This document shows, in pieces, positions 1 through 36,278 of a stretch of 36,979 nucleotides of DNA. Under the pieces are notes generated by a model. It was not told the DNA's origin. It ran no database searches and saw only the letters and a list, made by a program, of their open reading frames with translations. How positions within the stretch are numbered: the stretch's first letter is position 1; each line of letters begins with the position of its first letter. The stretch is from a virus. The stretch lies in IMG/VR virus record IMGVR_UViG_3300032323_003007, positions 1 to 36,979 of that record; one strand, given 5' to 3'. Position numbers and translations under genes: made by a program.

Positions 1-1274
1 GAAGACTTCTTGATTGCAGTCTCTGATTCTACTGCGTCGACACGCTTTTGTACACCATCAATCGTGCTCTTGATGTTATTTACAGCGCTTGAAAGTGCTG
101 TGTGTTGTTCTGCCAACTCTGAAATTCTAGCATCTACGCTCTTGCTAAAAGCTTCAACAGTCTCTTGGATTGTTGTTACTTGTGCTGCATTTGCTTCAGA
201 TGCCTTGTTTAGAGTTTCTGAGAAAAAGCCTTTTAGATCGCCTAACATCTTTGCAAAATCAGGTTCATCAACCTTATCTTCTGATACTTCGGCTGCTTTT
301 TCCAGAGTTTCGGCAGAAGGGTCTTGTGCTACTGCATCTTCAGTAGAAACTTCAACTGCTGCTTCATCTGCAACTACTTCTGTTTCTTCAACTGCTGCTT
401 CTGCTGCTGCGGTTTCGGCTGGAACTTCAACAATTGCATCTTCTGCAACTACTTCTGTGTCTTTGCCTACATTAAGTTTTTCCACTTCATTACCTCCTTC
501 TGCGTTTGCCTGTTTTGCATTTTTTTGTGTTTCAGGCAACGTAAATCTTGAATGCTTATATGCATCAAGAATCTTATCTATTTCTTTTGCTTTGTTAACA
601 TCTGAACTCTCAACCCAACCAATTAGTTGTGCTGGCTTACCAGATACTGGTGAGTCATATGTCTTCTCTGTTGAAATAAAAACAGAGTCACTGTCTTCAC
701 AGTAAAATATGTTTTCGGTTACGACACCTACTGCAATTCCCTTAAACATTAATTCCCCATTTACTTTCTGTACAGAAAGAATGTTACATAATTCATTTGC
801 TGGAGAATCAACAATTGAAAGCTCAATTAATTCGTAGTTCTTAATAAATCTTACTGTCTTACCATTTGACTTATTAACTTCGTTGTCTGATTCAAGAATC
901 TTTCCGCCGATTGAAAATCCAGATAGAGTTCCGTCTAAAACCTTTTCCCAAGTATCTTGAGCACCCTTTGAGATGTATGCATCTACGTAGACACCGTTAT
1001 AAAATTCTTTTGACTTTGGGTCGTAAAAACTTTCTGGCTTAAATGAAACCATTTTGCCCACTGCGTTTGATCCATGCATCTCACGAATGTTTCCACGGAA
1101 ATTTTCAAATGCCTTTAAGCTTGACTCTGCTGTTACAACATCGCCTGTTTGATCAACGTTGTCCAATGTAGCAAATCCAGACACAGTTCTTTTTTCACGG
1201 TTAACCTTAGTAAAAGGTACCGATAAATTAATGACGTTTCCATCACTGGTCCATAGAGACTTTTCAATGTTCAT
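1..1274 (-). CDS. Prohead protease fused to scaffold-like region (C-terminus cut by window edge)
   Basis: Capsid maturation protease, read directly from the minus strand; 424 codons are in the window and no stop is reached. Residues ~1-175 look like the XkdF/HK97-type prohead protease fold: a His in MHGSNAVGK (H67), a Ser in SGFSIGG (S121) and the conserved ELSIVDSPAN block (151-160). The His and Ser are the likely catalytic residues by family comparison. From about residue 215 the protein becomes very rich in Ala, Glu and Val, then predicted coiled coil, as expected for a delta/scaffolding domain that is later digested. It lies directly downstream of the portal gene, the usual order. No Shine-Dalgarno precedes the ATG at 1274; a -10-like box lies 7 bases upstream. 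A major capsid gene probably follows beyond the edge. Confidence 0.8.
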   Translation of the reverse strand, partial: MNIEKSLWTSDGNVINLSVPFTKVNREKRTVSGFATLDNVDQTGDVVTAESSLKAFENFRGNIREMHGSNAVGKMVSFKPESFYDPKSKEFYNGVYVDAYISKGAQDTWEKVLDGTLSGFSIGGKILESDNEVNKSNGKTVRFIKNYELIELSIVDSPANELCNILSVQKVNGELMFKGIAVGVVTENIFYCEDSDSVFISTEKTYDSPVSGKPAQLIGWVESSDVNKAKEIDKILDAYKHSRFTLPETQKNAKQANAEGGNEVEKLNVGKDTEVVAEDAIVEVPAETAAAEAAVEETEVVADEAAVEVSTEDAVAQDPSAETLEKAAEVSEDKVDEPDFAKMLGDLKGFFSETLNKASEANAAQVTTIQETVEAFSKSVDARISELAEQHTALSSAVNNIKSTIDGVQKRVDAVESETAIKKS

Positions 1275-1327: not shown

Positions 1328-2911
1328 TTAGTCAACCTGTCTTCCGTCGCCCTTGGCATTTCTTCCTTCTCCTACTTTATCTGAGGATGAGGCGGATCTT
1401 TCTGAATCTCGGGCTCTAGTTTTTCCAGCGGTTGCTTTTTGATCAGCGGCTTCTTGTGGCTTTAATTCAACCATTTTATCCCCACCATCAACAGGGATCA
1501 TGCCTTTTCTAATTCTAACTTCATTTGGAGTAATTACCTGCATTCTTAAATATCTTTCGTCTATTTGAGACTGGGTATCTTCATCCGTTAGGGTTAATTC
1601 GTTAAACTTTAAATACAAAGCATCTGTTTTTTCTTCAAATATTGCATTAATTTTTTTCTCAAGGGTCATTTGAGCTGGTCGGCAAACCTGCTCTTTAAAT
1701 GTCTTGTCTGCATCACGGGCTACTGCTAAATTAACCCCCTCTGGAGTTCCTATTTTATTAATTGGGACACGGTGGGCTAGCAGAATTTCATCTCTATTTG
1801 ATTTACGATATTTCTCAAATGAGCCTTCTTGATTTCCTGCTTCAATAGGCTCCATTTTAAATTCAACCTTTGAGTCTGGGCTATCAGCTGGAAGCGGTAC
1901 ATATAATGATCTATGGTTCTTTCCCTTTAATCCGACCTGGAAAAATTCAAGCAATTTACGCTCTGACTCTGGAGAAAGCTTTGCTCCCTTTACTGTAATG
2001 ATATATCTTGGGACAGCTTTGTTTTCAAAATAATCTAAGTTGTATCTTCCAGACAATTCATTACCTGCGAGTGCTACCTGTGCAGCAATAATGTCTGGGA
2101 TACCATAATAATTATTCATAGGGGTATACTTTTTAAAATGAATAATTTCATTTGGACGATCTTCTTGTCCAGCAATAGGGTTCTCTGTTTCAGTGTCTCC
2201 GAAGTTGTTAAAGAAAACAGCCTTGCCGTATAGCAATTGAACAAAGCCATCTCTTAATCTACGTACACGCATTGTCTTTGCTGGTATATGCCCAATGTAT
2301 CCAATGTTCCCACCTGTTGTTCTTCCAACTTCGATATAACCGTTGCCAGTAGCCTCCAGGTCTGTGTACACCTTAATAAGAGTTTGTGTAAAAGTATCTT
2401 CATCATTTGTTGTATCTAACCAAGCATGTAGGTCTTGACGAAGCTTGTTTAACTTTCTACGTGCTCTTTCTAGCTGCTTGTCATCTGTAATAGAATCAAA
2501 TGCATCGTTGGTCTTTTTTGTTTCAATAAAATCATAGCCTAAACCAACGATATTAGAAACCTTTGCGTTAATTGCTGCATAATTATAAGTAGATATTTCA
2601 TAAATCTTAGATAGATACTCTTGGTTGTATGGTGGCTCAATAAGATCAAACATTGCATAACCAGTAATTGCTTGTGCTAATAGGTTCTGCTGTGTACCGC
2701 TGCCGTCTATACCCGTAAAGGATTTAGAAAACTCTCTATTTATCTTACGCTTAAATGAAGATCCGAGACCTCTTACCTTTTTTAATTCTTCAAGACTCAT
2801 TGAAAATGGATCGTTGCTCTTGTCATCCTTTTTAAAAGAAAACCAGTCTGCAGTATTTGATATATCAATAATGCTTTCTGAGCCATCCTCATTAAGAAAT
2901 TCTACTGTCAT
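1328..2911 (-). CDS. Phage portal protein
   Basis: Portal subunit: the dodecameric ring at the capsid vertex through which DNA is packaged and ejected. The 527-residue length and several blocks fit the PBSX/HK97-like portal families: an N-terminal helical region (~85-180), the GNGYIEVGR block, PAKTMRVRRLRDG, then EIIHFKKYTPMNNYYGIPD, which resembles the family's 'fHl+...yG.s.l' block, followed by a long helix and the stem-like ALAGNELSGRYNLDYFENKA. The C-terminal ~45 residues are polar and low-complexity (Ser, Asp, Lys, Arg). The start overlaps the stop of the upstream 113-residue gene by four bases (ATGA), so the two are probably translationally coupled. The prohead protease follows after 53 bases. 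Confidence 0.85.
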   Translation of the reverse strand: MTVEFLNEDGSESIIDISNTADWFSFKKDDKSNDPFSMSLEELKKVRGLGSSFKRKINREFSKSFTGIDGSGTQQNLLAQAITGYAMFDLIEPPYNQEYLSKIYEISTYNYAAINAKVSNIVGLGYDFIETKKTNDAFDSITDDKQLERARRKLNKLRQDLHAWLDTTNDEDTFTQTLIKVYTDLEATGNGYIEVGRTTGGNIGYIGHIPAKTMRVRRLRDGFVQLLYGKAVFFNNFGDTETENPIAGQEDRPNEIIHFKKYTPMNNYYGIPDIIAAQVALAGNELSGRYNLDYFENKAVPRYIITVKGAKLSPESERKLLEFFQVGLKGKNHRSLYVPLPADSPDSKVEFKMEPIEAGNQEGSFEKYRKSNRDEILLAHRVPINKIGTPEGVNLAVARDADKTFKEQVCRPAQMTLEKKINAIFEEKTDALYLKFNELTLTDEDTQSQIDERYLRMQVITPNEVRIRKGMIPVDGGDKMVELKPQEAADQKATAGKTRARDSERSASSSDKVGEGRNAKGDGRQVD

Positions 2912-3249
2912 CTTAAACCACCTAGTTTCTTCATTTCGTCTTTATAGTTACCAATGTCGTATGGGTCTGGAACTAATCCCCAGTCAAGTCTTTGTTTTTG
3001 ATGCTCAAATTCTTCGTCGTTAATTTTTCTTCTTGCTGAAAGAAATTTAGGCCCGCCTTCATATATACCGAATGAGCGAACTTCTCTAGCCAAAGCATCG
3101 ATGTTGGATCTATTGCCTTTTTTGGACGTGACCGAAAGAAAATTCCCATCATCATCTCCAATCCATCTGCCGTCAGGCATTTCCCAGACATATATGCCTA
3201 GAGTAGACTCTTCTTCTAGCATTCTGGTTTTAGTTCTATTAATGTCCAT
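2908..3249 (-). CDS. Small portal-associated protein of unknown function
   Basis: Encodes 113 residues from the ATG at 3249, or 115 from an in-frame ATG at 3255. The later start is preferred because a TGGTATGAT box ends only 2 bases before 3255 but 8 bases before 3249. The protein is charged, with no membrane segment. It contains GIYVWEMPDGRWIGDDDGN, a likely beta-hairpin with acidic turn, and ends in a basic helix (DEMKKLGGLR). Its stop overlaps the portal start, so it is probably made in step with the portal. It may be a portal- or packaging-associated protein; I do not recognise a named family. Confidence 0.7.
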   Translation of the reverse strand: MDINRTKTRMLEEESTLGIYVWEMPDGRWIGDDDGNFLSVTSKKGNRSNIDALAREVRSFGIYEGGPKFLSARRKINDEEFEHQKQRLDWGLVPDPYDIGNYKDEMKKLGGLR

Positions 3250-3257
3250 AGACATAA

Positions 3258-3311: not shown

Positions 3312-5114
3312 TTATAGGCTAACTGCCTCTGCCTCTACCACTGTTATAAAGAATGGAGTTGAATCTTCTCCCAAAGTGGACTCTTCTATTTCAAATGAGG
3401 TATCATTAATTTGATTTACTACGTTTCCTGTATATAGTAAATAGTGGTTAAGCTTTGAGGATAGGGGTAGATCTTCTTCATATACCGCAAGATTATTATA
3501 CATATGGCTAGATCCGTATTTAGATCCATCTTGATTTTGATTAAACTTAATATTGCTATCTGCTGACGTAAACTCTATAATTATATGATGAGGGGTTCCC
3601 GCAACCATAAAGTCCCACACATTTATTGCGGATGTCCTATTTATACCATTTACGTATATTGAATTAATTCCAGACTTTGTTATATCTCCAGATGCGTCCC
3701 ATTCGTATTTACTATTTAATCCGCTCACAAGAACATTTTCATAATCCTGGGGAGTAAATATAACCTCTACTGTTGAAATTTCTGGAACATTATTTAACGA
3801 GAATCCGTGTCCGTCATACATTTTAAGCCCATTGTTGCTATTGTAAGACAGCGTCTTGCTATTTATCTTTGGCAAAGAGTAATCATAATCTGAAGATATA
3901 TAGTAGCCAGAGTTGTCGCTGTAAAAATTTTTTGAACCATAAAAAGCAATATCTAAAGATCTTAGAATTGGTAAGTATCTTGTGGCATCGTCAGAAGATA
4001 GGGTTACTCTTAAATAAACAATGTCTGAAATTTGATTATCGTTTTTATTAAAATAAGGTAACGGTGCCCCATTTACACATGGCTCCCAGCCAGACACTCC
4101 ATTTAGACTGGCCTCTACCAAAATACCGTTTACGTCATTTTGCCAATGTATTTGAGAGCTAGTGATCCCTAAATAATTTGGAACAACAAAATGATCTGTA
4201 AATGAAAAAGATTCTGGACCTACTGTTTCTGGTATATATACATAAGATTGATCGGTTGATATATTTTCTCCGCTTATACCTATTTCTCCCCACAATTTTG
4301 ATACAGGGTAAGTATATGAAAATTTGCGCTGTATGGATTCTGTGTTCATGCTAAACAAATAACCGTTATCTACAGATACTATTTGAGACACATTAACTTC
4401 TTTTGTGCCTTCGTTGTAATGATTTAAAATTTGAGAAGAGGCAAGAGCATACCTGTAGAATCCTACTGAATCAATTACAAGCCTTCCTTCACAAGGACCG
4501 CTTTTAAACAACACAGAATTGTTAGAAAATTTATAATTATCAATAGATGCTGTGTCAACAAGTAAACCGTTTACGTACAAAGACAACAAATTGCTTTGAA
4601 AAATTCCAACAATGTGGATTGCTTCAGAATTAGATACCGTGTGCTCTGCTTTGTTTGGCCCAACCCGAAATATAACGTTTCCGTTTTCGTAAAATATTCC
4701 AGTGTCTATTAAATCGTCTCCTACAATTGTTGCAGCAACATCATATTCTGGAAGCGCAGCCCATACTTCTATTGAAAAAGCATTATCTTTATAGTCTTTG
4801 GTTGCTATACCTTTTGGGCTGTATCTAATTTCAGTAGAAGACAATATTTCTGTACCTCTAATTCCTCCAGACACCAACGGCATTATCTGTTTTGTGGATG
4901 CAGAAGAAGCGGTTCCATTATTAAGGCTACCCGAGTAATCGTAGACATCAATACCAGTAATTTGTGAATATACCAAACCGCTGTCTTTTAAATCCTGGTA
5001 GGTCGCAAATTGAGATAAAAGTTCTGAGTAATCTTCTATTAGCCCAGACTGCACCTCGTCTAATAAATAAAATGAGTTTGGAAAGTCGTTTAAGACTATA
5101 TTTTTATATGACAT
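3312..5114 (-). CDS. LamG-type lectin-like tail fibre protein
   Basis: A 600-residue structural protein and probable receptor-binding fibre component. Residues ~55-245 look like a LamG/concanavalin-A-like domain: DYSGSLNNGTA at its start, NAFSIEVWAALPEYD, SLYVNGLLVDTASID, then the closing IDSVGFYRYALASSQILNHYN. Such jelly rolls bind sugars in many adhesins. The remaining ~350 residues are beta-rich, and a second weaker lectin-like segment (~430-560) repeats the theme with SIYVNGINR and NLAVYEEDLPLSSKLNHY. The start is supported by AGGAGG five bases upstream of ATG 5114. It is the last fibre gene before the portal operon. Sugar specificity cannot be inferred. Confidence 0.7.
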   Translation of the reverse strand: MSYKNIVLNDFPNSFYLLDEVQSGLIEDYSELLSQFATYQDLKDSGLVYSQITGIDVYDYSGSLNNGTASSASTKQIMPLVSGGIRGTEILSSTEIRYSPKGIATKDYKDNAFSIEVWAALPEYDVAATIVGDDLIDTGIFYENGNVIFRVGPNKAEHTVSNSEAIHIVGIFQSNLLSLYVNGLLVDTASIDNYKFSNNSVLFKSGPCEGRLVIDSVGFYRYALASSQILNHYNEGTKEVNVSQIVSVDNGYLFSMNTESIQRKFSYTYPVSKLWGEIGISGENISTDQSYVYIPETVGPESFSFTDHFVVPNYLGITSSQIHWQNDVNGILVEASLNGVSGWEPCVNGAPLPYFNKNDNQISDIVYLRVTLSSDDATRYLPILRSLDIAFYGSKNFYSDNSGYYISSDYDYSLPKINSKTLSYNSNNGLKMYDGHGFSLNNVPEISTVEVIFTPQDYENVLVSGLNSKYEWDASGDITKSGINSIYVNGINRTSAINVWDFMVAGTPHHIIIEFTSADSNIKFNQNQDGSKYGSSHMYNNLAVYEEDLPLSSKLNHYLLYTGNVVNQINDTSFEIEESTLGEDSTPFFITVVEAEAVSL

Positions 5115-7390: not shown

Positions 7391-8035
<645 letters not shown>

Positions 8036-8257: not shown

Positions 8258-8261
<4 letters not shown>
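8046..8261 (-). CDS. Small acidic fibre-associated protein
   Basis: Encodes 71 residues starting [20 protein letters not shown]. The start at 8261 is chosen over 8276 because it has GGGGGAG upstream and overlaps the preceding collagen gene's stop by four bases (ATGA), implying translational coupling. Very acidic, with a C-terminal helical hairpin ([21 protein letters not shown] is 21 residues reading through; the last 14 resemble a UBA-like helix pair). Similar small acidic proteins accompany tail fibre genes in other phages and may aid assembly. This role is inferred from position only. Confidence 0.6.
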
Positions 8262-10303
<2,042 letters not shown>

Positions 10304-10305
10304 TT

Positions 10306-11376
10306 TTAAATTATACCACTTTTAAGATTCTGAGCATCGTGATAAAAGGCAAGATTGTCATGCAGTCTTTGATCTTCGCACAAAGAAACAGCTATCTCCC
10401 CATGCTTTGAAGCTGCTTCAAAATCCCCTAGGTTATAGTTTGCAAGTGCTAGCAGATCATGAGGTTTCCATCCCCATGAGTCTGATTCGCAAAAATATCC
10501 TAAATACTTTTCTTTTATATTTAAAGCAAGCTCTGAATATTCTTTTACTTTGTGCCAATCTTCTTGCTCATAAAAATATTGAGCTAGATCTACAATGGGC
10601 TCTCTTCTTTCTGGGCATTCTGCAATTGCTGTTCTTAGCCAGTACTCTTTATTTTCTGGTTCACATTTAGCAATGTATCTCATAGACTCACATCTTTCTG
10701 GCTTCCAAAAGGCGGACTCTAAAGACAGGTGTCTTTTAAATTCTGCTGCAGACTCTGCATATCTAGCATAATAAAATAGTTCACGAGCATAGTAATGTGC
10801 ACATCTATCGCTTAAAGGATCTTCTTTTGCTGCCATTTCTAAAAGAGCAAGATATTGTCCTCTAGATTTGTTATTGTCTGGCAGATGAGATATTTTTACG
10901 TCAATCTTTTTTCTTACCTCTTCTATTCCATAAAATGAAACAGATTCGTGAATTGGAAATTTCCACCTATGACCGTGTCTTGAATGCATTCTTAATGCAT
11001 CAAATTCTGTTCCTGATTGTCCCGCTTCATCTATATGGGTAGCAAGTGTATGTATTGGTCTTGTTACATTAGAACCTTCTAAAGACTCTAACTCTTTTCT
11101 CCAGCCTTCCGAAAGTATTTCATCCATATCCATAGATATGCAGTAATCAATGTCGGAAGGAAGTAAGGCAAGAGCTGCATTGCGAGCATCATCAAATCGC
11201 CATGGATTTATAGAAATGATATGTACATTTATTCCAAGTGATTTGGCTATCTCTACTGTTTTATCTGTAGAACCAGTATCTGCAATTAATAAATAGTCAG
11301 CATCTTTTGCAGATTCATACCAACGCTTAACAAATTGCTCTTCATTCAAAGCAATTGTATATACTGCTATTTTCAT
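10306..11376 (-). CDS. GT2-family glycosyltransferase with TPR-like C-terminus
   Basis: A 356-residue protein with a GT-A fold glycosyltransferase domain at residues 1-~110: [10 protein letters not shown], the nucleotide-sugar motif [10 protein letters not shown] (D33-T40), FDDARN (61-66) and a DxD-type metal site SMDMDE (D83, D85). Residues ~170-350 are helical with TPR-like pairs ([20 protein letters not shown]-like spacing). This architecture occurs in enzymes that glycosylate proteins or cell-surface glycans. The gene sits directly between two collagen-like fibre genes (stop two bases before one start; 17-base gap on the other side), so fibre glycosylation is a reasonable hypothesis. Sugar donor and acceptor are unknown. 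CGGAG precedes the ATG. Confidence 0.8.
10310..10318 (-). promoter_or_regulatory. Extended -10 box for the 681-residue collagen-like fibre gene
   Basis: The minus strand reads TGGTATAAT, a consensus extended -10, overlapping the last codons of the glycosyltransferase gene. It ends six bases before the fibre ATG, which has no Shine-Dalgarno. Initiation would place +1 at the start codon. No -35 match. Confidence 0.5.
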
Positions 11377-11393: not shown

Positions 11394-13775
11394 TTAGCCA
11401 ATTATGTTAATTACACCTGTCATAGGAGAATGGAATTGGCAAATATAGTATAGCGTAGCTGGTGCGGCTAAGTCAACAGTAAAACGAATTCCGCCAACAT
11501 CGTCTCCGTTATTTACAACTCCAGTATTATATTGATCTCCCGTTCCAGTTGTCTGTGCAGTTTTAATCCAAAACGGGTGCCCAGAGGCATTTACTGTAAA
11601 GAAGTATGTTTGTCCTCTTACTAATGTTAATGCTCGATTTGAAATTCCATCAATTGAATAAGAACCTGATCCGCTATTTGTAACTTGAAAGTTTTGTATG
11701 ATAGTTAATCCTGCTGGACCCGTTGGTCCTGTTGGACCACCTGCAGGTCCGTCTGCACCAGTTGGTCCTGTTGGGCCTGTTAAACCAGCACCTGTGGCTC
11801 CTGTGGCACCAGTTGCGCCTGTTGGTCCTACTGATCCTGTTGGTCCTGTTGGACCCTGAATACTTGATCCATTGGCACCTGTGGCTCCTGTGGCACCTGC
11901 GGCACCTGTTGGCCCTGCTGGGCCTGTGGCTCCTGTAGCGCCTACTGCTCCTGTTGGGCCTTGAATGCTTCCCACATTTGTCCAAGCAGCTCCTGCCCAA
12001 ACATAAAGCTCTCCAGCAACTAAATAAGCGTCTCCTGTTTGACCTGATGGCTGTGCGGCTTGCAATTGTGCAAGAGTAGAGTAAGAACCAAGGATTGAAA
12101 CTCCAGTTCCATCTGATCCAGCTACTCCTGTGGCACCTGTTGCGCCTGTGGCACCAGTTGCGCCTGTTGGTCCAGCAACTGTGCTATTAGCGCCTGTAGC
12201 GCCTGTAGCACCTGTTGGACCTGTGTTTCCTTGAGCTAAAGTAAAGTTCAAAACAACATCTGTTGTTGTTCCTGAGTTTGTTACAGAAGGAATTCCAGTT
12301 GCACCAGTTGCAGTTGTTGTACCTAAAGTAATTGTAGTTGGTCCAGCTGGTCCAGTTGCCCCTGTAGGTCCTTGCCTTAAAGTAAAATCAAACACTGCTG
12401 CAGATGATGTTCCTGAATTTACAACAAGGGAATTTCCTGTTGGGCCCGTAGAGGTAGTCGTTCCGATTGCAACTGTTGGAGTAGATCCAGTCGGTCCTGT
12501 TACTCCCGTTGGTCCTTGACGTAATACAAAATCAAAAACTCCAGCAGATCCTGTTCCAGAATTTGTTACAGAAACTGTTCCAGTAGGACCAGTTGAAGAT
12601 ACTGTTCCTACCGCAATTGTTGCTGGTCCAGTTGCTCCTGTAGGTCCTTGAAATTGTCCCGCATCAATCCAAGATGATCCGTCCCAAACATAAAGATGTA
12701 AATCTGTTAAAACTATCCATGAGTCTCCTGAAACATTTCCAGAAGAAGGCAATGCAGCAAAATTTGCTTGCGTTCCCTTAATGTTTATAGATCTTCCAGC
12801 TGCGCCTGTAGCACCTACTGCCCCTGTTACTCCTCTAAGACCTGTTGCGCCTGTTGCGCCTGTTGGGCCTATAAATCTTCCTCCGTTTTGCCATACTAGA
12901 CCGTTATATAAATATACTTCTGATGTTGATGATAATATGTATGCTGTTCCTAGCGGTGCGTTAGCAGGCAATGCGTTTATGTCGGCTACTACTCCCTCAA
13001 GCCTTAAACCTGTTCCATTTGCACCAGTTGGTCCTGTTTGGCCTGTTGGCCCTGTTGGTCCTTGTGGACCCGCTGGTCCAGTTGCTCCATTAGTTCCTAT
13101 AGTTCCGTTAGTTCCTGGATTTCCAGCTACTGCAAAAACCCAATTAACATATGTACCAGTTCCACTAAACGAATCTACGGCTACGGTAATGCTGACATTT
13201 TTAACAACTTGTGTAATAATGCCTTCTACATATGTAGTTAAAGCAAGTGGATTAATTACACGAACTCTTTGTCCTGCTGTGTATGCTCCGCTATTATTTA
13301 CAAAAAATACTTTTGCTCCAGCTGAAACTTGGTGTGATGTTATAGAAGTAATATCTGAATATCCTGCTCCAGAGGCACCAGTAGTTCCGCCTCCACTGCC
13401 GCCACCTGAAAGTGTTCCTGAAAGATCAACCCCAGATATTGTTAATGAGTAACAGTTTGGCGTTGTAGTAACTGCTGCAATAGATTCTCCAGCATTTAAA
13501 ATTAATGAGTGCTCAAGCTTTAATGTTGTGTTGTTTTCAACACTCACATTGCCATAAAGAGTGTATGGGTCTAAACTCGACCTGTTAATATTGTAAAGGT
13601 TTATAAGCTGATCGCCATTTTCTCCCAATAAGAAAATGCTAAAAGGAAGAGTTGATCCACTAAAGTTTGTTACGGTAAACTCTTTGATAATTATAGTTGA
13701 TACAGCTGTGTATATTTTTGCTGGAGATGCTGGAATTAAAGAAGGTCCTGCAAATCTAATTGGAGCATATGACAT
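11394..13775 (-). CDS. Collagen-like tail fibre with C-terminal cupredoxin-like domain
   Basis: Encodes 793 residues. Residues ~1-125 form a beta domain ([11 protein letters not shown] ... [13 protein letters not shown] ... LTISGVDL) that matches the small separate protein at 17910-18230. A glycine linker and a beta module follow, then several Gly-X-Y stretches alternating with ~50-residue inserts that close on W hairpins ([36 protein letters not shown]). The last ~105 residues look like a cupredoxin: a His in SGHPFWIK (H733) and [16 protein letters not shown], giving Cys779, His782 and Met785. That is a complete type-1 copper ligand set with C-x2-H-x2-M spacing as in amicyanin. Copper binding is inferred, not shown. 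AAGGGGG precedes the ATG. Confidence 0.8.
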
Positions 13776-24134: not shown

Positions 24135-24755
24135 CTAGAATATCATGCTTGTTGCTAAAAGTGTTGCATTTTGTTGAGTCATATTTGTTAAGAACTCGTA
24201 CTTTGGATAGTATACACCAAGATTAAGTATCTGGTCTGCCTTCCAGCTATCTAGTTCTGTTATTACATTTTGTACTGCTGTTTCTCCCGCTGGTCCTGTT
24301 GCACCAGTTGGTCCTGTAATACCTTGTGCTCCTGCTGTTCCAACTGGACCCTTTAAATTTCCTTGAAGTACCCAAGTAGTATTTGAAGAATTATATTGGA
24401 AGTAATCTCCAGTTGTTGTATTTAAATATGTGTCGAGCCCTAGCTTACTTGCTGGATTTTGTGATGTTGGATTGTTTATACCTGTAAATGTATAAGAACC
24501 TCTTTGTCCCGCCAAACCTTGGGCTCCTGGTGTTCCTGCTGCACCAGTTGGTCCTGCTGGAATTTGAAAATTAAATATTGCGGCAGATGAAGATCCACCA
24601 TTAACAATTGATGCTGCGGTTCCTGCTGCAACAGTTGTTACTGTTCCAACAGAAATAGTTGCTGCAGAACCTGTAGGTCCTGTCGCACCTTGGGGTCCTG
24701 GTCTTGAACCAGCGACGGTAACCCATGAGCTACCATTCCATCTTTTTAATGACAT
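24135..24755 (-). CDS. Short collagen-like fibre protein
   Basis: Encodes 206 residues. Starts with the W hairpin MSLKRWNGSSWVTVAGSRPG, then short collagen-like patches ([50 protein letters not shown]) separated by beta segments, one containing DYFQYNSSNTTWVLQGN. The C-terminal ~45 residues are a helix (ITELDSWKADQILNLGVYYP) and a hydrophobic end. Unlike the three larger collagen-like fibres, its triplets also use Gln and Ala in the Y position. AGGAGG lies 8 bases upstream, and a TGGTATACT box further upstream. Confidence 0.7.
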   Translation of the reverse strand: MSLKRWNGSSWVTVAGSRPGPQGATGPTGSAATISVGTVTTVAAGTAASIVNGGSSSAAIFNFQIPAGPTGAAGTPGAQGLAGQRGSYTFTGINNPTSQNPASKLGLDTYLNTTTGDYFQYNSSNTTWVLQGNLKGPVGTAGAQGITGPTGATGPAGETAVQNVITELDSWKADQILNLGVYYPKYEFLTNMTQQNATLLATSMIF

Positions 24756-26756: not shown

Positions 26757-26993
26757 TTATATGACGTAGTTTTTTGGTAGCTCCTGTGACCATTTGCCAA
26801 CAGGGCATTCAGAATGAGGAAGCTTAACCTTTGCCGTCATAAAGCAACTACACTTTTTGCACTGTTTAGTTGCTTTCAATAAGTGCTCGCATCCAAGGCA
26901 AACGTCGAGTCTTTTTTTGGCAACCTCTTTCGAAACATGATCTATACTTGGGTCAATTAGATCCCACGGTCTGGCTGGCCTATTGCTTTTCAT
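26757..26993 (-). CDS. Cys-rich zinc-binding-type protein
   Basis: Encodes 78 residues. The core reads CLGCEHLLKATKQCKKCSC followed by FMTAKVKLPHSECPVGKW: two CxxC pairs plus extra Cys, spaced like a zinc ribbon, ending in the CP.gKW block. Short proteins of this type are known from tailed phages and often sit beside 2OG-Fe(II) oxygenase genes. A structural or nucleic-acid role is possible; no function is established here. The start overlaps the oxygenase stop (TAATG), so they are co-expressed. Confidence 0.6.
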   Translation of the reverse strand: MKSNRPARPWDLIDPSIDHVSKEVAKKRLDVCLGCEHLLKATKQCKKCSCFMTAKVKLPHSECPVGKWSQELPKNYVI

Positions 26994-27643
26994 TATAAAA
27001 CTTTAGAGACGTGGCCCTGATATCTGCCATGCTCTTTATGGTTTCTGTCGTTATATGAAAACATAGTTACGGCAGAATACTTTATTCCAGACTTTACTGG
27101 CAAAGCGGCATGCGAAAAAAGATAACTGGACGGGAACAAAACAATGTCTCCATATTGAGGAACATATGTATAGTCAAAGTTTGGAAAATATAGCTCTCCA
27201 CCTTCATAGTCGCTATTTAAGTACATTACAGTTGATACGTCGCAAGAGTAGCTTGGACCGCTATCTGGGTGCGTTTTAAAATGCTGTCCTTCTCCATAAC
27301 GCACAAAGTTAATCGCTTCCATATAATTAAGTGGGTTTATATGATAAGACGCTCTATAATCTTCTAGGCACTCGTTAAGCTTTTCTGTTATTTGATCGTG
27401 TATTGATATAATTTCGTCTGATAACTCATTTCCTGGTCTTAAGGAATCTCTTTTAATTTTAAAATCAACACAGTCTCTGTAATCTAATTTTTGTACATGG
27501 TCGCCAACTGTAGCAATTGACCATTTAAACATTGAGCTTTTACCTGAACTCAATACCTTTTCCAGTCTCTCTGGAATGTTCATTGCTTCTGGCAAAGCGT
27601 TTCTGTATATCTTTATCCCTACTGCGGGAATGTCAATTATCAT
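26993..27643 (-). CDS. 2-oxoglutarate/Fe(II)-dependent oxygenase (prolyl-4-hydroxylase-like)
   Basis: A 216-residue protein with the P4H-type jelly roll: RYGEGQHFKTHPDSG holds the iron ligands H125 and D127, MYLNSDYEGGELYFPNF is the conserved strand pair, GDIVLFPSSYLFSHAALPV has the distal His178, and K188 follows in a position that binds 2-oxoglutarate. The triad and the Lys are intact, so it is probably active. Phage enzymes of this class may hydroxylate proteins or other small substrates; the substrate is unknown. Proximity to collagen-like fibres invites a proline-hydroxylation idea, but most Pro here is in the X, not Y, position. AAGGAG precedes the ATG. Confidence 0.82.
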   Translation of the reverse strand: MIIDIPAVGIKIYRNALPEAMNIPERLEKVLSSGKSSMFKWSIATVGDHVQKLDYRDCVDFKIKRDSLRPGNELSDEIISIHDQITEKLNECLEDYRASYHINPLNYMEAINFVRYGEGQHFKTHPDSGPSYSCDVSTVMYLNSDYEGGELYFPNFDYTYVPQYGDIVLFPSSYLFSHAALPVKSGIKYSAVTMFSYNDRNHKEHGRYQGHVSKVL

Positions 27644-27658
27644 AATATCTCCTTTTTA

Positions 27659-28249
27659 CTAGACTAAAGGTATCCACTTTTGCGAATACTGATTTTTTAT
27701 TTCTGATAATGGGCTTACGTAAAACACTATTGATTTAAATTTATTGTAATAAACAATTTTATTACCCGCCTCTGAAATTACAATGTCTCCAGGGTTTATA
27801 TCAAAATTTGTATCATTAATTGAAATCTTTGATTTTTTTGAGTCTAGAGAAATTATTCCAAACATAGACGGCCTTGAAGTTCCTCCAGCATCATACCATA
27901 GAGAAAGATCTTGATCTTCAACTAATGAGGAATAAATAAAGTATTTATTCTTTGAATAGCTGAAATCGTGCTCCATGCATGCATTTTTTATTAAATAGGA
28001 AACTTTTTGAAAAAGAAAATACATTTGTTCGTCATGCATAAAAAAAGGATTATAATTATTTTTATTATAAACTTTAGAAATCTTTTCATCAGACATGCCA
28101 AAGGTGTATAGGTTTTCAGATTTATCTAACTCAATTGCTATTTTTTCATAGAGGCCAGATGTTTCAAAATTGTCCCTACTTGAAATTGTTTTTCTTTTTT
28201 CTCTATAAATTACATTTTCATTTTTATTTTGAGAATAAGTATTAATCAT
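27659..28249 (-). CDS. Degenerate 2OG-oxygenase-like protein A
   Basis: Encodes 196 residues. The C-terminal half resembles a 2OG-Fe(II) oxygenase: LSLWYDAGGTSRPSMFGIIS, then INPGDIVISEAGNKIVYY and a final KWIPLV. At the expected H-x-D site the chain reads W-Y-D-A, with Tyr119 in place of His, and no clear distal His is seen, so iron binding is doubtful. It may be a catalytically dead paralogue or a structural cupin. AGAGG precedes the ATG, which overlaps the upstream stop by 8 bases. Lys- and Asn-rich, more AT-rich than its neighbours. Confidence 0.45.
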   Translation of the reverse strand: MINTYSQNKNENVIYREKRKTISSRDNFETSGLYEKIAIELDKSENLYTFGMSDEKISKVYNKNNYNPFFMHDEQMYFLFQKVSYLIKNACMEHDFSYSKNKYFIYSSLVEDQDLSLWYDAGGTSRPSMFGIISLDSKKSKISINDTNFDINPGDIVISEAGNKIVYYNKFKSIVFYVSPLSEIKNQYSQKWIPLV

Positions 28250-28772
28250 TTTTAACCTCTACATAAGAAACTCCAATAATTAATTCTCCCGAAGATACTT
28301 CAGAAATTTTATACTTGTAGTCTTCTTTAGATGGAAAAATTATTAAATTGCCTTTAGACAAAGGTATGGACATGTCCTTATTTAAAAATGTAATTGTAGC
28401 GTCAGAGTGATGGTTGTTTACAACGTAAATAATTGATATAGTGTCCGTTAATCCTGGGTTTAAAAAATCTTGAGTGTATGATGTTTCGGGAATTATTTTT
28501 AAAAACACATTTTCAATCGGAAAAACAAAAGACAGGGAGTTGTCATGAAGATATGAATTTATTTCAGAAATGTAGCTAACATATAGTCTTCTATTTTCTA
28601 AATTTAAATTTTTAAAGTTTGTTGTTTTAATTACTCCTTCTTTAAAACCATTTACTCTTTCTACCCATGAAATTTCTTCAAAGTTTGCAAGTAGGCGCTG
28701 AAGATCTGCGTCTTTTATATATGAAAATTCGTAAACACTTATGTCATCTTGTGAAAATATCTTGTTAACCAT
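28242..28772 (-). CDS. Degenerate 2OG-oxygenase/cupin-like protein B
   Basis: Encodes 176 residues from ATG 28772, chosen because GGAGG lies five bases upstream; a longer reading from 28841 would overlap the upstream gene heavily. The strand pattern in the last third (DTISIIYVVNNHHSDATITF, then PLSKGNLIIFPS) follows the 'vmyLN....GGel.f ... G.lviFPs' order of the intact oxygenase two genes downstream, but no H-x-D or distal His is identifiable. Together with protein A it may have arisen from an oxygenase-like ancestor. Function unknown. Confidence 0.4.
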   Translation of the reverse strand: MVNKIFSQDDISVYEFSYIKDADLQRLLANFEEISWVERVNGFKEGVIKTTNFKNLNLENRRLYVSYISEINSYLHDNSLSFVFPIENVFLKIIPETSYTQDFLNPGLTDTISIIYVVNNHHSDATITFLNKDMSIPLSKGNLIIFPSKEDYKYKISEVSSGELIIGVSYVEVKND

Positions 28773-29310
28773 TTTTGCCTCCTGGTCTGTGGCCGTGCCA
28801 TACATCTGGATAAACTGGATCTCTTGGCGGATCAATATCAAATACTGATATTGATGATTTTTTTTCTAGTGGGATATCCTCTATTCTTTCTTTCCAAATA
28901 TCTTTAACTAGTTTGGTAGCTTTTTCAGTTTTTGCGCTTCTATCTAAAGGCACATCCATAATTACATTTAAATAATCATTAAATATCGCTCTAGCAACTA
29001 ATCCAGAAACTCCAAGCAAGCCCATCTTTCTGTACTTTGGATTTACATAAACTCTTTCATTTCTTCCATTTTTATTAACAGTGCAATACAAGTCTGGATA
29101 TTCTACAGGTAAGAAGTCTGAAACAATAACAGTATTCTCGGGATGCATGTTGTTGAAATAAATTGCACTTACATATTTTATAGATGTGTGATTTAATTTT
29201 GTAACATGTATCCAGGAACCTTTCAACTCATCGGGCATTCCAGAAAATACGGGCACAAGATTTTCTCCAACCTTTTTCATTTCTATAATATTATATTGCG
29301 CTTGAGTCAT
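28765..29310 (-). CDS. Possible GNAT-type acetyltransferase
   Basis: Encodes 181 residues. The segment RVYVNPKYRKMGLLGVSGLV resembles the acetyl-CoA-binding V.P.yR..GlG motif of GNAT enzymes, though the glycine pattern is imperfect. The N-terminal half is beta-rich, consistent with that fold. The C-terminal tail (DPVYPDVWHGHRPGGKNG) is polar and probably disordered. GAGAGG lies upstream of the ATG. The start overlaps the stop of the PASTA/Hint gene. Modification of a fibre or host component is imaginable but not supported directly. Confidence 0.4.
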   Translation of the reverse strand: MTQAQYNIIEMKKVGENLVPVFSGMPDELKGSWIHVTKLNHTSIKYVSAIYFNNMHPENTVIVSDFLPVEYPDLYCTVNKNGRNERVYVNPKYRKMGLLGVSGLVARAIFNDYLNVIMDVPLDRSAKTEKATKLVKDIWKERIEDIPLEKKSSISVFDIDPPRDPVYPDVWHGHRPGGKNG

Positions 29311-30352
29311 GAGTTAACATCCTCTCTGTAAAGAACATATCGTATGGCTCACAGTTGATAGAAATAATATCGTGTGGGGCCTGAATTATTTCATAAAGAT
29401 AAATAGGCTCCCAGCTGCTGGTATCATACGAATAGACTAGATCAGTTTCCTTAATTATATTTACTGAAGTTTCAAACTTGGAAACCCCATCTCTTTTAAT
29501 TAAAATATAATGGTATTGAGAAAATATATCTTCATTAATTACAACCGCATATGCAGACTGTGTTTTATATATATTAGCTATGGTTGTAATTTCTGGAATA
29601 ATGTTGGGATTACTATCTGACCAAGCAATTGCTTGAGCTGTTATTCCTTCGTCTCCTTCATAAGGAAACCCTTCAATATTTGCAGATAAAAGAGTGTCTC
29701 CTACTCGCAAATCTCCTGCTTTAACAAGGCCATCGGTAGTTCTTACTAAAGTTGTAATTCCAACGCTCTTGCCGCCAAAGCTAAACAATGCGCTTAGGTC
29801 CAATGATGCTAAAGTAATATCGAATCCTGGGTCTGCAAATCCTGGGTTAGCAAAATTTGGTTCGTTAAAAGCTGGTTCGTTAAAAGCTGGTTCGTTAAAT
29901 CCTGGGTTAAATCCTGGGTTAGGAGGATTTATACAAGGAGATCCCGTGTTTCTTGCTGCACAACTAAACTGTCCGCTAGGACTGTACTGGTATTGAAACC
30001 AAATACCGCCATTACAGAAACCAGCATCGTCATCTATACAGTCACTTTGTGGAGGAAATCCTGGATTAATTGGTTGAAACCCTGGATTAAATCCTGGGTT
30101 AAAGTTTGGTGGAGCTACATAATTGTAATAAGTAAAAGTAATTTTTTCGCCAATTCTTAATGTTGTTCCTTGTGCAATTGGTTGATTTTTAATAGATAAA
30201 TCTAAATTAATATTTGATGTATCTTCTGCTACTTCTTCCCAAGATAAGCCGACAGATTCGAGTGCGGATTTTGCTTGGTTTCGTGTTAAGCCATTGATAT
30301 TAGGCATATCAACTTTTCTTATGCCTGCACGACCAAAGAATCTTCTTGCCAT
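29291..30352 (-). CDS. PASTA - NPGF linker - Hint (intein-like) domain protein
   Basis: Encodes 353 residues with three parts. Residues ~14-77 are a PASTA domain (MPNINGLTRNQAKSALESVG ... PIAQGTTLRIG), which in other proteins binds cell-wall muropeptides. Residues ~80-177 are a low-complexity linker of NPGF, NEPAF and NEPNF repeats with four Cys. Residues ~195-350 fit a Hint domain: KSVGITTLVRTTDG at its start (Ser196 at the usual Cys1 site), GDLRVGDTLLS, His281 (block B) and MFFTERMLTHDS at its end, where the usual His-Asn is His348-Asp349 followed by Ser350. No splicing extein is evident, only four trailing residues. Self-processing is possible but not shown. TATAAT ends five bases before the ATG. 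Confidence 0.68.
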   Translation of the reverse strand: MARRFFGRAGIRKVDMPNINGLTRNQAKSALESVGLSWEEVAEDTSNINLDLSIKNQPIAQGTTLRIGEKITFTYYNYVAPPNFNPGFNPGFQPINPGFPPQSDCIDDDAGFCNGGIWFQYQYSPSGQFSCAARNTGSPCINPPNPGFNPGFNEPAFNEPAFNEPNFANPGFADPGFDITLASLDLSALFSFGGKSVGITTLVRTTDGLVKAGDLRVGDTLLSANIEGFPYEGDEGITAQAIAWSDSNPNIIPEITTIANIYKTQSAYAVVINEDIFSQYHYILIKRDGVSKFETSVNIIKETDLVYSYDTSSWEPIYLYEIIQAPHDIISINCEPYDMFFTERMLTHDSSAI

Positions 30353-30357
30353 TTTGT

Positions 30358-30363
30358 ATTATA
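30358..30363 (-). promoter_or_regulatory. Consensus -10 box, leaderless position, for the PASTA/Hint gene
   Basis: TATAAT on the minus strand ends five bases before ATG 30352, which lacks a Shine-Dalgarno. The box overlaps the TAA stop of the upstream fibre gene. It may create a separate transcript for the accessory island. -35 not recognisable. Confidence 0.45.
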
Positions 30364-31459
30364 CTGCTAGGTCACCCAAAACGACCCAACTGTTACTGCC
30401 TCTCTTCAATACCGATGCGCTTGACCATTGTGCTCTAAGCTTGAGACCTGGTGTAGAATTTGGTGTAAATCCTGCTCCAGCTATAGTAACCTGTGAGGCT
30501 CCTGTTTGTAAAATTTCTATCGATGTACCTATTGGAAAATTATACGTTGTGTCTGCAGGTATTGTCAAGGTTCCGCCACCTGACATTTCTACAATTTTTC
30601 CTATATCTGTAGACTGAAGTGTATATGAGCCGCCTTGTGCATTAAATGAAATTACTTCGTTTATTTTGGTGTCTAGGGCTGTTTGTACTAAATTCGATAT
30701 TGGCTTTTCTGCATCAGAAGTATTATCAACATTTCCAAGACCTACATGTGTTTTTGTAACACCACCTACTGTTCCAGTAAATGTTGGTGAGGATATTGGC
30801 GCATATGTTGTTGCGGCTAGGGAGGAATCTAGTTTATTCCCTACCGCTGTTGTTAAAGTTGTAGCAAAATTAGGGTCATCTGCTAAAGCTGCAGCTAACT
30901 CATTTAAGGTGTTAAGAGTTGATGGGGCAGAATCTACAAGGTTAGAAATTGCAGTTGAGATTGCTGTATTTCTATCTGCTACTTCTGTAGAAATTGCTGA
31001 AGATAATTCTGTGTCTCTTGTAATTGTGGCTGGAATTTCAGAATCTGGGACTGTTCCATTTTCATCAAGTGTAGCGACACCTTCTGGGTTTCCATAAAGA
31101 CTTAATGGAATATATGTTTCCGCAGCAGTATTGCCTAAAGATGAAACTGCTGTATCAACATATGTTTTATTTGCAATAGTGTTATCTACAGATACTGTAA
31201 GCTTTCCAGTCTGTGAATCAAAGCTTTTATCTATACCAGTTCCGTCTAAAACTGTATCAGCAATATATTCTTGAGTTAAGCTTAAAAGTTCTGATGGAGC
31301 TACGCTTAGATATGGAAGAGATTGCCACAAGCTAGATCCGTTGCCAACTTTTATTTTTCCTAAAGTTGTATCTAGCGCAATTTCACCAGCAGATAATACA
31401 TTTGTAGATGCATTCCACTGTGTAGTGGTGCCTCTTCTAATTCTTATGCTGACTGGCAT
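30359..31459 (-). CDS. Tail fibre protein with Mtd-like N-terminal domain
   Basis: Encodes 366 residues. The first ~50 (IRIRRGTTTQWNASTNVLSA, GEIALDTTLGKIKVG, WQSLPYL) match the N-terminal domain shared with the major tropism determinant and many fibres; it anchors trimers. Then comes a region with the pattern FDSQTGKLTVSV, a coiled-coil (DSAPSTLNTLNELAAALADD) shared with the fibre at 24792, THVGLGNVDNTSDAEKP (a very common phage fibre motif), and a C-terminal beta cap (SYTLQSTDIGKIVEMSGGGT ... VVLGDLAV). GGAGGT precedes the ATG, overlapping the previous stop (TAATG). Confidence 0.78.
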   Translation of the reverse strand: MPVSIRIRRGTTTQWNASTNVLSAGEIALDTTLGKIKVGNGSSLWQSLPYLSVAPSELLSLTQEYIADTVLDGTGIDKSFDSQTGKLTVSVDNTIANKTYVDTAVSSLGNTAAETYIPLSLYGNPEGVATLDENGTVPDSEIPATITRDTELSSAISTEVADRNTAISTAISNLVDSAPSTLNTLNELAAALADDPNFATTLTTAVGNKLDSSLAATTYAPISSPTFTGTVGGVTKTHVGLGNVDNTSDAEKPISNLVQTALDTKINEVISFNAQGGSYTLQSTDIGKIVEMSGGGTLTIPADTTYNFPIGTSIEILQTGASQVTIAGAGFTPNSTPGLKLRAQWSSASVLKRGSNSWVVLGDLAV

Positions 31460-34343: not shown

Positions 34344-36278
34344 TTAACTAGAAATGTCTACTAGCTCACAGTTTCCATCTGAGCTGCATGCTAGTGTAGC
34401 ATTTGTAGAAGTTCCGTCTTCTGTTTCATAAAAAGATAAATCTTCCCAACGAATATTTTTAGGCATTTTTTCAACAAGTGCATCGTATTCTGCTTTGTCT
34501 ACTTCCTGGTAAGGTGCTTGCTTGTATGAGTGATCGGAATGAGGCAGGAATGAAATTCCAGACACTTCATCAAAATGCTTATAAACCCATGCTCCAACTT
34601 CCATCCACTCTTCTTCTTTTACGGAAACAGTAATAGATGGTTTGTGCTCACACCATGCACGTTGATAAGCTAACCAAATGTTTAAGTGCTCAATAGCAGT
34701 AAGATCATTTCTAATAATTGCGCCTTCTGGTGCTTTTACTGGAAATGAAAATACGTATGTATCGTTTGGCTTCATGACATCATCTTCTACTGGAATCCCA
34801 ACTTCCTTAAGAAAAACAGAAATAGGGTCTCCCTTTGAGCCACGAACTGTACGAATATAATATGGGGAATGCCATGCATGCATTCCTGAAGACACCCCGA
34901 CCAATTGAGATACTGTTCCTGATGGCTTTACACATGTAATAGCGGCAGATTCGGGAATCCCAATTTTCCCAGCCTCTTCTTTATTAATTTCACGAGCATA
35001 CTCACGAAGTCGAGATAATGCATCTTCTAATTTATCAAGACCCTGTTTTCCAGAAAAGAACTTATGTCCAAATTGTCCTGTTAATGAAACTCCAAGCAGT
35101 CTTTCTTCTTCGGTGTTATCTTTCCAAATTTTGCGAAGGTACTTAAAATCTGTTAGTGTTGATTGCCAAGTCCCAAGAATTGTTGCAAGGCGTACCTTAT
35201 TTGCAACATCTTCATTTGTATCCTTTTCACGTAGTACGACTTCTGAAAGATTACAAAACTGGTAAGGACGTAGGATAATCTCTGAACACGGGTTAGTTCC
35301 ATAGTGTATATCTGGATCTCTTCTGCCAAACTTGGCTGCTTGGGCTTGAGCTGCGGCCACATTGTATATACCTCGTTCTCCTGATTTTGAATCATATAGA
35401 GATTTCCATTCTGCAATAAACTGCTCCATTTCTGGTTTGCGTGAATACGCAACAGAGTTGTTAGACAAAGCACGTTGTGGGCTTGCTTCCCACCAATTAC
35501 CTGACTTTGCCTGTGCCATTTCAATATCATTAATATTGGAAAGAGAAATCATTGCTGATCGACGAACTCCGCCTACAACAACTACTTCACCAATCTTACA
35601 CATTATGTCGTGGCATTCAATTGGCTTTAAATTTCTTCCTGTAGCATTCTTAAACTTTGCAATTGTAAAATCAAACAAATTAATAAGTGGCTGTGGACCT
35701 GATGACCTTCCGCCCATTGTCTTAAGTCTTGCTCCTGCTGGTCTTACCTTAGAAACATCAATTGCTGGAATCTGTCCAGACCAAAGTAGCGCTAGCAACT
35801 CACGGTATGCCTTGGCCCAGCCTTGCTTTGAGTCTTCTACTGTAATTACTGTAGTTGACTTTTCTAAAGATTCTGGGACGGCAGGAAGTTTATTGATGTA
35901 CTTATACTCAACAGAAAATCCTACACCCGTACCGCACATAAGTATGTACATAGTCTCATCAAATGAACGTGGGGAATCAACTGGTAAGAAAGCACAGTTG
36001 TATCCAGCTACATTATCTCTTTCCAATGCTGCACCTGAAGTCATAACAGAACGCATTGATGGCATAACATTTCGTTCAAAGACAAACTCTTTTAATTCCG
36101 CAACAAGCTTCTCATTTGGAATATAATTATGGTTTTTTTCTAGATGGCCAAGCATGAAGTTAAAATATCTATCTACTGTTTCACCCCAAGTCTCACGGCG
36201 ATTATCTTCTGATATCCATCTTGCATATCTTGATAATGCAATGAAATTTTCGTATGGGTTTGCAATAGTTTTAGACAT
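34344..36278 (-). CDS. nrdJ: Adenosylcobalamin-dependent ribonucleoside-triphosphate reductase (class II)
   Basis: Makes deoxyribonucleotides from ribonucleoside triphosphates using vitamin B12 radical chemistry, without oxygen or a second subunit. Key residues match the Lactobacillus RTPR type: Cys95 (YNCAF) and Cys342 (QFCNLSE) form the likely redox pair; NPCSEI (329-334) holds radical Cys331 and Glu333, with the same 11-residue spacing from radical to redox Cys; PSGTVSQLVGVSSGMH is the phosphate-binding loop; C631/C637 at the C-terminus are the shuttle cysteines. At 644 residues it is somewhat shorter than cellular enzymes (~740). It supplies phage DNA synthesis. Weak AAAGG before ATG 36278. 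It stands alone, outside the fibre operon. Confidence 0.92.
   Translation of the reverse strand: MSKTIANPYENFIALSRYARWISEDNRRETWGETVDRYFNFMLGHLEKNHNYIPNEKLVAELKEFVFERNVMPSMRSVMTSGAALERDNVAGYNCAFLPVDSPRSFDETMYILMCGTGVGFSVEYKYINKLPAVPESLEKSTTVITVEDSKQGWAKAYRELLALLWSGQIPAIDVSKVRPAGARLKTMGGRSSGPQPLINLFDFTIAKFKNATGRNLKPIECHDIMCKIGEVVVVGGVRRSAMISLSNINDIEMAQAKSGNWWEASPQRALSNNSVAYSRKPEMEQFIAEWKSLYDSKSGERGIYNVAAAQAQAAKFGRRDPDIHYGTNPCSEIILRPYQFCNLSEVVLREKDTNEDVANKVRLATILGTWQSTLTDFKYLRKIWKDNTEEERLLGVSLTGQFGHKFFSGKQGLDKLEDALSRLREYAREINKEEAGKIGIPESAAITCVKPSGTVSQLVGVSSGMHAWHSPYYIRTVRGSKGDPISVFLKEVGIPVEDDVMKPNDTYVFSFPVKAPEGAIIRNDLTAIEHLNIWLAYQRAWCEHKPSITVSVKEEEWMEVGAWVYKHFDEVSGISFLPHSDHSYKQAPYQEVDKAEYDALVEKMPKNIRWEDLSFYETEDGTSTNATLACSSDGNCELVDISS

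Follow-up and report, generated by a model that had tools for sequence, protein, structure and literature searches.

A predicted C-terminal Hint domain with serine at position 1 on a PASTA protein encoded among the fibre genes of a freshwater phage

One gene in the fibre cluster of a freshwater phage encodes a PASTA domain, a linker and, at the C-terminus, what looks like a Hint domain with Ser instead of the usual Cys (Table 1), and the question that this locus raises is whether such a domain, with only four residues behind it, still acts on the protein that carries it. A preliminary description of the window, by which we mean the whole stretch of 36,979 nucleotides that was analysed, had suggested that the protein might cleave itself or attach to a partner, or else be a dead structural relic. 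The PASTA domain named there was recovered by Pfam in the window protein (PF03793, E 7.1e-7; score 29.5 bits, cut-off 23.2) at residues 14-75, and both the NPGF-rich linker and the LTHDS end, which is followed by SAI, are visible in the translation. As the family name by itself would suggest, the PASTA domain may bind the cell wall, with peptidoglycan or beta-lactam as its ligand. An ORF on the + strand (29694-29996) runs antisense to the repeat linker and was set aside as a gene. The Cys-rich insert of the linker (DDDAGFC..., residues ~95-141 of the window protein) is 61-66% identical between Ser1-type and Cys1-type proteins (L057 and L060), which is far higher than the identity of their Hint domains and looks, from the sequences, as if modules had been swapped.

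Table 1. Features of the Hint gene and of its neighbours in the window
Feature	Position	Strand	Remarks
PASTA-linker-Hint protein, 353 aa	29291..30352	-	ORF with stop; 62 related loci in one search
PASTA domain, residues 14-75	30128..30313	-	Pfam PF03793, above gathering score
Low-complexity NPGF/NEPxF linker, residues ~82-178	29819..30109	-	visible in translation
Cys-containing insert DDDAGFCNGG..., residues ~103-141	29930..30046	-	common to Cys1-type relatives L057-L060, 61-66% identity
Hint domain, S196-D349	29306..29767	-	profile, predicted model, structure alignment
S196 codon AGC, nucleophile position 1	29765..29767	-	alignment of 47 domains, structure alignment
S278 codon, block-B TxxH position, Ser for Thr	29519..29521	-	Ser in 42/42 Ser rows, Thr in 5/5 Cys rows
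H281 codon, block-B His, invariant	29510..29512	-	alignment of relatives
H348-D349 codons CAT GAC, replacing His-Asn	29306..29311	-	hold the next gene's ATG (29310-29308)
Four-residue tail S350-S-A-I353	29294..29305	-	+1 residue is Ser in 18/18 His-Asp rows
181-aa downstream gene, overlapping the Hint gene by 20 nt	28765..29310	-	beside Ser-type Hint genes in 32/42 rows; probably GNAT-like
Collagen-like GPTGPTG proteins	7391-8035, 8258-10303, 11394-13775, 24135-24755	-	
2OG-Fe(II) oxygenase	26993-27643	-	same cluster
Family-2 glycosyltransferase	10306-11376	-	same cluster

Searches with the window protein alone found no match for the Hint domain in Pfam, PHROGs or NCBIfam, and the Cys-type relatives L057 and L060 gave weak, below-cut-off matches to Intein_splicing (0.0014 and 0.03). 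A family profile made from an alignment of 38 Hint domains (A1) matched, among PDB sequences, the bacterial intein-like domain 2lwy (1e-6) and the gp41-1 intein (4e-4), with the phage 'yd' end falling on the last two residues of gp41-1, and a profile of five Cys1 domains gave only a weak match to 6rpp (E 0.016), a chain named 'Cell division control protein' in that search and titled intein in the structure-alignment listing. An AlphaFold model of residues 183-353 (pLDDT 87.8, pTM 0.84) has a beta fold across the whole domain, as the Hint superfamily does, and retrieved 45 PDB matches at E <= 0.001 with Foldseek; inteins and BIL domains head the list (6riz, 2.4e-7), and the best 50 matches listed are by title all inteins, BIL or Hedgehog domains. 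Alignment of the model with VIA-align gave a Z of 18.1 to 6y75_B (rmsd 1.8, 135 aligned), 17.8 to 1mi8 (Ssp DnaB), 17.2 to 2lwy and 17.1 to Hedgehog 1at0, as well as 15.4, at 22% identity, to 9hth, a cysteine-less intein crystallised with S1A. The Hint domain first read from the letters has thus found its counterpart in the structure prediction, where BIL, intein and Hedgehog structures score Z values of 16-18, and the predicted model supports a C-terminal Hint domain in this product. We file it under the Hint fold and not under any curated Hint or intein sequence family.

The register of the active site is likewise supported. The structure alignments place S196 (model residue 14) on intein residue 1 and D349 (model residue 167), in several inteins, on the last aligned residue, for example 2in0 1..440. 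The window domain has the Ser at position 1 and the block-B His (H281) that are looked for in the Hint superfamily, and the proposal that S196, H281 and H348-D349 occupy the Cys1, block-B His and His-Asn sites agrees with both structure alignment and conservation.

Fold prediction is uninformative on activity. Self-cleavage or transfer by the domain is nevertheless a plausible, putative function, and the reading that we prefer, to which we give a rough probability of 0.56, is that the Hint domain is intact, makes an ester at Ser196 and either cuts off or hands on the PASTA-linker part. After folding, Ser196 would attack the K195-S196 peptide bond in an N-O acyl shift aided by H281 and S278, and the resulting ester would be resolved by water or by another nucleophile, so that the Hint domain would either release the PASTA-linker part or pass it on. 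Cleavage at the C-terminal side would be weak or absent, and only four residues lie there. We infer this chemistry, its outcome and its timing. Against the preferred reading stand the replacement of the penultimate His by Tyr or Phe in 24 of 42 Ser1 domains, the missing C-extein, the strong structural constraint seen in the EPYDMF block, and the next gene's start codon, which accounts in part for the conserved His-Asp-Ser end of the His-Asp clade.

A single protein would say little about constraint, and we turned to relatives. A scan of viral contigs with the window protein found 62 related loci and a profile scan with the A1 alignment found 78, many of them on the same contigs, and with these overlapping sets a chance occurrence is disfavoured. 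No relative was present among the 66 pattern matches of a scan of bacterial and archaeal contigs (genome_contigs), and neither the window protein nor the L028 domain had a relative among cultured phages at E 0.01. Conservation was counted over 47 distinct Hint domains, with identical domains counted once, after L141 (a fragment without the position-1 site) and L021 (cut before the EPYDMF block) had been left out. Domains with Ser at position 1 are as little as 28% identical to each other and 20-33% identical to those with Cys, from which one fully supported branch of the tree separates them; elsewhere in the Hint tree long branches meet and the fine placement is unsure. On this sequence comparison the window domain is part of an unnamed phage family. 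In the rows seen the Hint domain is the last of its protein, as it is in the Cys1/His-Asn tail proteins of jumbo phages. In a viral-model library, the Hint model matched Hint-containing phage proteins, including A0A6J5NY54 (301 aa, TM 0.84), a 'PASTA_pknB domain containing protein' from an uncultured Caudovirales phage which is only 20% identical in the aligned part and whose name mentions PASTA but not Hint.

Only two residues occur at position 1, Ser in 42 domains and Cys in the remaining 5, in a set of 47 whose rows were gathered by motifs other than position 1 and then extracted by a rule that required S or C there, a rule that failed on one row, L141, which starts after the site. All six serine codons are used at this position (TCT 19, AGT 8, AGC 6, TCA 5, TCC 3 and TCG 1; TCN 28, AGY 14), and the tree places two switches between TCN and AGY at Ser1, against 0, 0, 1, 1 and 1 at five other well-conserved Ser columns. 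The shortest path from TCN to AGY goes via Cys (TGY) or Thr. With six codons and two block switches, the side chain of Ser1 looks selected. A probability calculated for three invariant sites is given no weight, being circular at S2, the residue by which the Ser rows are defined. H281 is present in 47/47 domains. All five Cys rows end in Asn, whereas 41 of the 42 Ser rows end in Asp, L119 with its Asn being the exception. Taken together, the constant Ser/Cys at position 1, the six Ser codons, the invariant H281 and the nearly constant Asp349 make the dead relic of the preliminary description a disfavoured reading on these alignments.

Conservation would also be expected if the domain were kept for its shape, and the strongest rival, considerably less probable than the preferred reading, is that the Hint fold is a C-terminal folding domain, a cap or chaperone that makes no cut, in which Ser1 and His serve packing or hydrogen bonds. 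The most conserved block of the domain, EPYDMF, is as conserved, together with two Trp columns, as the active-site positions, and since it is no catalytic motif, structural constraint must also be strong. The loss of the penultimate His, the replacement of Asn by Asp and the constant C-terminal place of the domain would suit a cap as well. However, a Ser kept for packing would be expected to drift to Ala, Thr or Gly in some rows, whereas Ser or Cys stands alone at position 1 in 47/47 through six Ser codons and two block switches, and the Cys1/His-Asn relatives retain Cys1, TxxH, His and Asn.

The C-terminal end of the domain is less uniform, the penultimate residue being His in 18 of the 42 Ser rows and Tyr or Phe in the other 24. 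The residues of the first step are kept and those of C-terminal cleavage are eroding, which is the pattern expected for action on the N-side only, and with the penultimate His so often lost, splicing is less likely than a reaction at the N-junction (K195|S196). Conservation in the window's own clade has to be read together with the next gene. The codons CAT GAY contain the ATG of that gene in 16 of the 18 His-Asp rows, the window included, and such an overlap alone would keep His (or Tyr, Asn or Asp) followed by a codon that starts with G and would forbid Asn as the last residue. Because of this overlap, the conservation of His-Asp-Ser in the clade is not independent evidence of catalysis. His-Asp-Ser also stands in L092 and L093, two long-branch rows that lack the overlap, as does Asp in 23 of the 24 Tyr/Phe rows, again with no overlap. 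Asp therefore probably preceded the overlap, and a need of the next gene for G was rejected as the sole reason why Asn became Asp. The overlap of these codons with the ATG in the window's clade and the conserved, probably GNAT-like downstream gene are new here.

That downstream gene belongs to one family in 32 of the 42 Ser rows, whose two branch profiles align with each other (probability 99.7, E 4.2e-25). Pfam finds GNAT in 9 of the 32 members (best 2.1e-4), the window's own not among them; all four matches of the family profile against the PDB (E 0.21-1.3) are by name either acetyltransferases (three) or RibT; and a model of the protein (pLDDT 71.5) drew a fold list made up mostly of acyltransferases, with a best Z of 5.5. 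The product is probably GNAT-like. The gene after Cys1-type Hint genes is of a different family, which by its motif looks like a 2OG oxygenase.

A conserved partner of this kind also bears on an unlikely variant of the same chemistry, a transfer as in Hedgehog, in which the Ser1 ester would be attacked from outside by a nucleophile such as a sugar, amine or lipid of the wall or virion, to which the PASTA-fibre part would become covalently joined. The N-terminal half of the mechanism is kept and the C-terminal half erodes, as in Hog, which is also C-terminal, gives the Z of 17.1 (1at0) and can dispense with its terminal Asn, and the PASTA domain stands at the N-end. Against this, Hog has Cys1 and a sterol-recognition region after Hint (the excerpt of PMC7765530), whereas the window protein has Ser1, ends four residues past Hint (349 of 353) and so has no region for recognising an acceptor; no acceptor is known, and the fold of the partner is only moderately supported. 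An attachment machine of this sort in phages, in which the ester would be handed to a nucleophile belonging to the cell wall, a second fibre or a product of the GNAT-like protein and the fibre would be fixed covalently, with Ser suited to oxidising extracellular conditions, seems to us similarly improbable. Apart from any transfer, Ser could have an extracellular advantage over Cys; according to the excerpt of PMC13014065, split inteins without cysteine work under oxidising conditions.

Full splicing, with Ser1, His, Asp and Ser+1 acting as in a class 1 intein to join K195 to SSAI, is very improbable even in the His-Asp clade, since its product would gain only four residues, +1 is Gly in 18 of the 24 other Ser rows and the tail overlaps the start of the next gene in 16/18 His-Asp rows, although Ser+1 is found in all 18 of these rows, including L092 and L093 where no start codon overlaps, and Asp is accepted as a last residue in the excerpt of PMC7664689.

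Among described systems, inteins begin with Ser or Cys and end with Asn, Gln or Asp according to that excerpt, and the window domain has the residues of class 1 (Ser/Cys1, block-B His and a terminal Asn, Gln or Asp) but its host protein has no functional C-extein, the stop coming four residues after D349. It resembles the Ser1 inteins (Aes123 PolB1, 9hth) in its first residue and in its fold, at Z 15.4 and 22% identity, and differs from them in having no extein to restore, with four residues following, and Asp rather than Asn last. A class 3 intein acting through the conserved C334 was rejected: class 3 has neither Ser nor Cys at position 1 and uses a block-F Cys instead, whereas S196 occupies position 1 here, and L092 and the Cys1 rows have Thr in place of C334. 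BIL domains (C. thermocellum 2lwy, T. thermophila BIL2 6y75) share the Hint fold, provide the best profile match (2lwy, 1e-6) and sit in variable proteins as the window domain does. Unlike the A-type BIL, which ends in His-Asn (excerpt of PMC7765530), the window domain combines Ser1 with His-Asp, and many relatives have Tyr/Phe-Asp; its motif pattern would fit the B-type, which has the intein motifs minus the C-terminal one and cleaves at its N-terminal side. C334 (29351-29353) itself is Cys in 41 of 42 Ser1 rows and Thr in L092 and all five Cys1 rows, a near-reciprocal swap of Cys in the alignment.

Cultured phages carry the Cys1 counterpart. A search with a Cys1 domain found four phage records, including NCTB, whose gene at the match is annotated 'putative phage tail protein, contains intein domain', and Yersinia phage fHe-Yen9-02 ('virion structural protein'); a search with the fHe-Yen9-02 domain found 53, mostly from Erwinia jumbo phages. 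The tail Hint domains of jumbo phages (NCTB, fHe-Yen9-02, Erwinia Alexandra, Y3 and Yoloswag, Dickeya AD1) are C-terminal like that of the window, have an EP(Y/F)D-like motif and adjoin fibre genes, some of them collagen-like. They differ in having Cys1, a THEH or TEQH block B and His-Asn near the C-terminus (NCTB tail protein, fHe-Yen9-02, Yoloswag, AD1 and 2910A), no PASTA was seen in them, and at ~27% identity to the Cys1-type query they gave no match to the window protein. In NCTB a free-standing Hint ORF of 153 aa (L142:3004-3465) directly follows the Hint-ended tail protein, and a 'large intein domain protein' is nearby.

A C-terminal Hint domain on tail proteins is therefore a wider phage habit, already visible in part in existing annotations, and judging by sequence, the Ser1/Asp clade is a divergent, so far metagenomic branch of this tail-protein family. 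Our search of the open-licence literature, by titles and the beginnings of abstracts, found no paper on C-terminal Hint domains of phage fibre proteins, and the words 'Hint' and 'intein' do not occur in the main text of PMC6143709. Uncultured phages and cultured jumbo phages alike show this arrangement, which is recurring and conserved. If the domain is active, the maturation of fibres would include a self-cleavage or transfer reaction, which has hardly been considered for tail assembly. The Ser1 clade is a source of natural Ser1 Hint domains. Whether such proteins are processed can already be tested in their cultured relatives from jumbo phages of Erwinia, Dickeya and Yersinia.

The genomic setting supports a role in the virion. 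The fibre-gene surroundings proposed earlier were borne out, since the gene preceding the Hint gene (30359-31459, -) codes for a tail protein with an Mtd_N (Major tropism determinant N-terminal) domain (E 2.4e-13), and collagen-like and tail-fibre proteins flank the Hint gene on both sides. The best explanation of the 29291-30352 product is a fibre or adhesin component of a tailed-phage virion. From the gene content, the oxygenase and glycosyltransferase of the cluster may possibly hydroxylate and glycosylate the collagen-like fibres. The portal protein is ~57% identical to portals of Streptomyces phages, including LukeCage (Stanwilliamsviridae), and because of this resemblance, which PASTA fits, we infer that the host is likely an actinobacterium.

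The portal gene and, by eye, two adjoining genes (1328-2911, 2908-3255 and 3312-5114, -) resemble LukeCage genes 48, 47 and 46, and the fibre cluster sits between these portal-region genes and a ribonucleotide reductase (34344-36278, -). Two genes of 196-199 aa (27659-28249 and 28242-28841, -) have no Pfam or PHROG match, and the end of the 199-aa product looks by eye like a 2OG-oxygenase-type barrel with a doubtful metal site.
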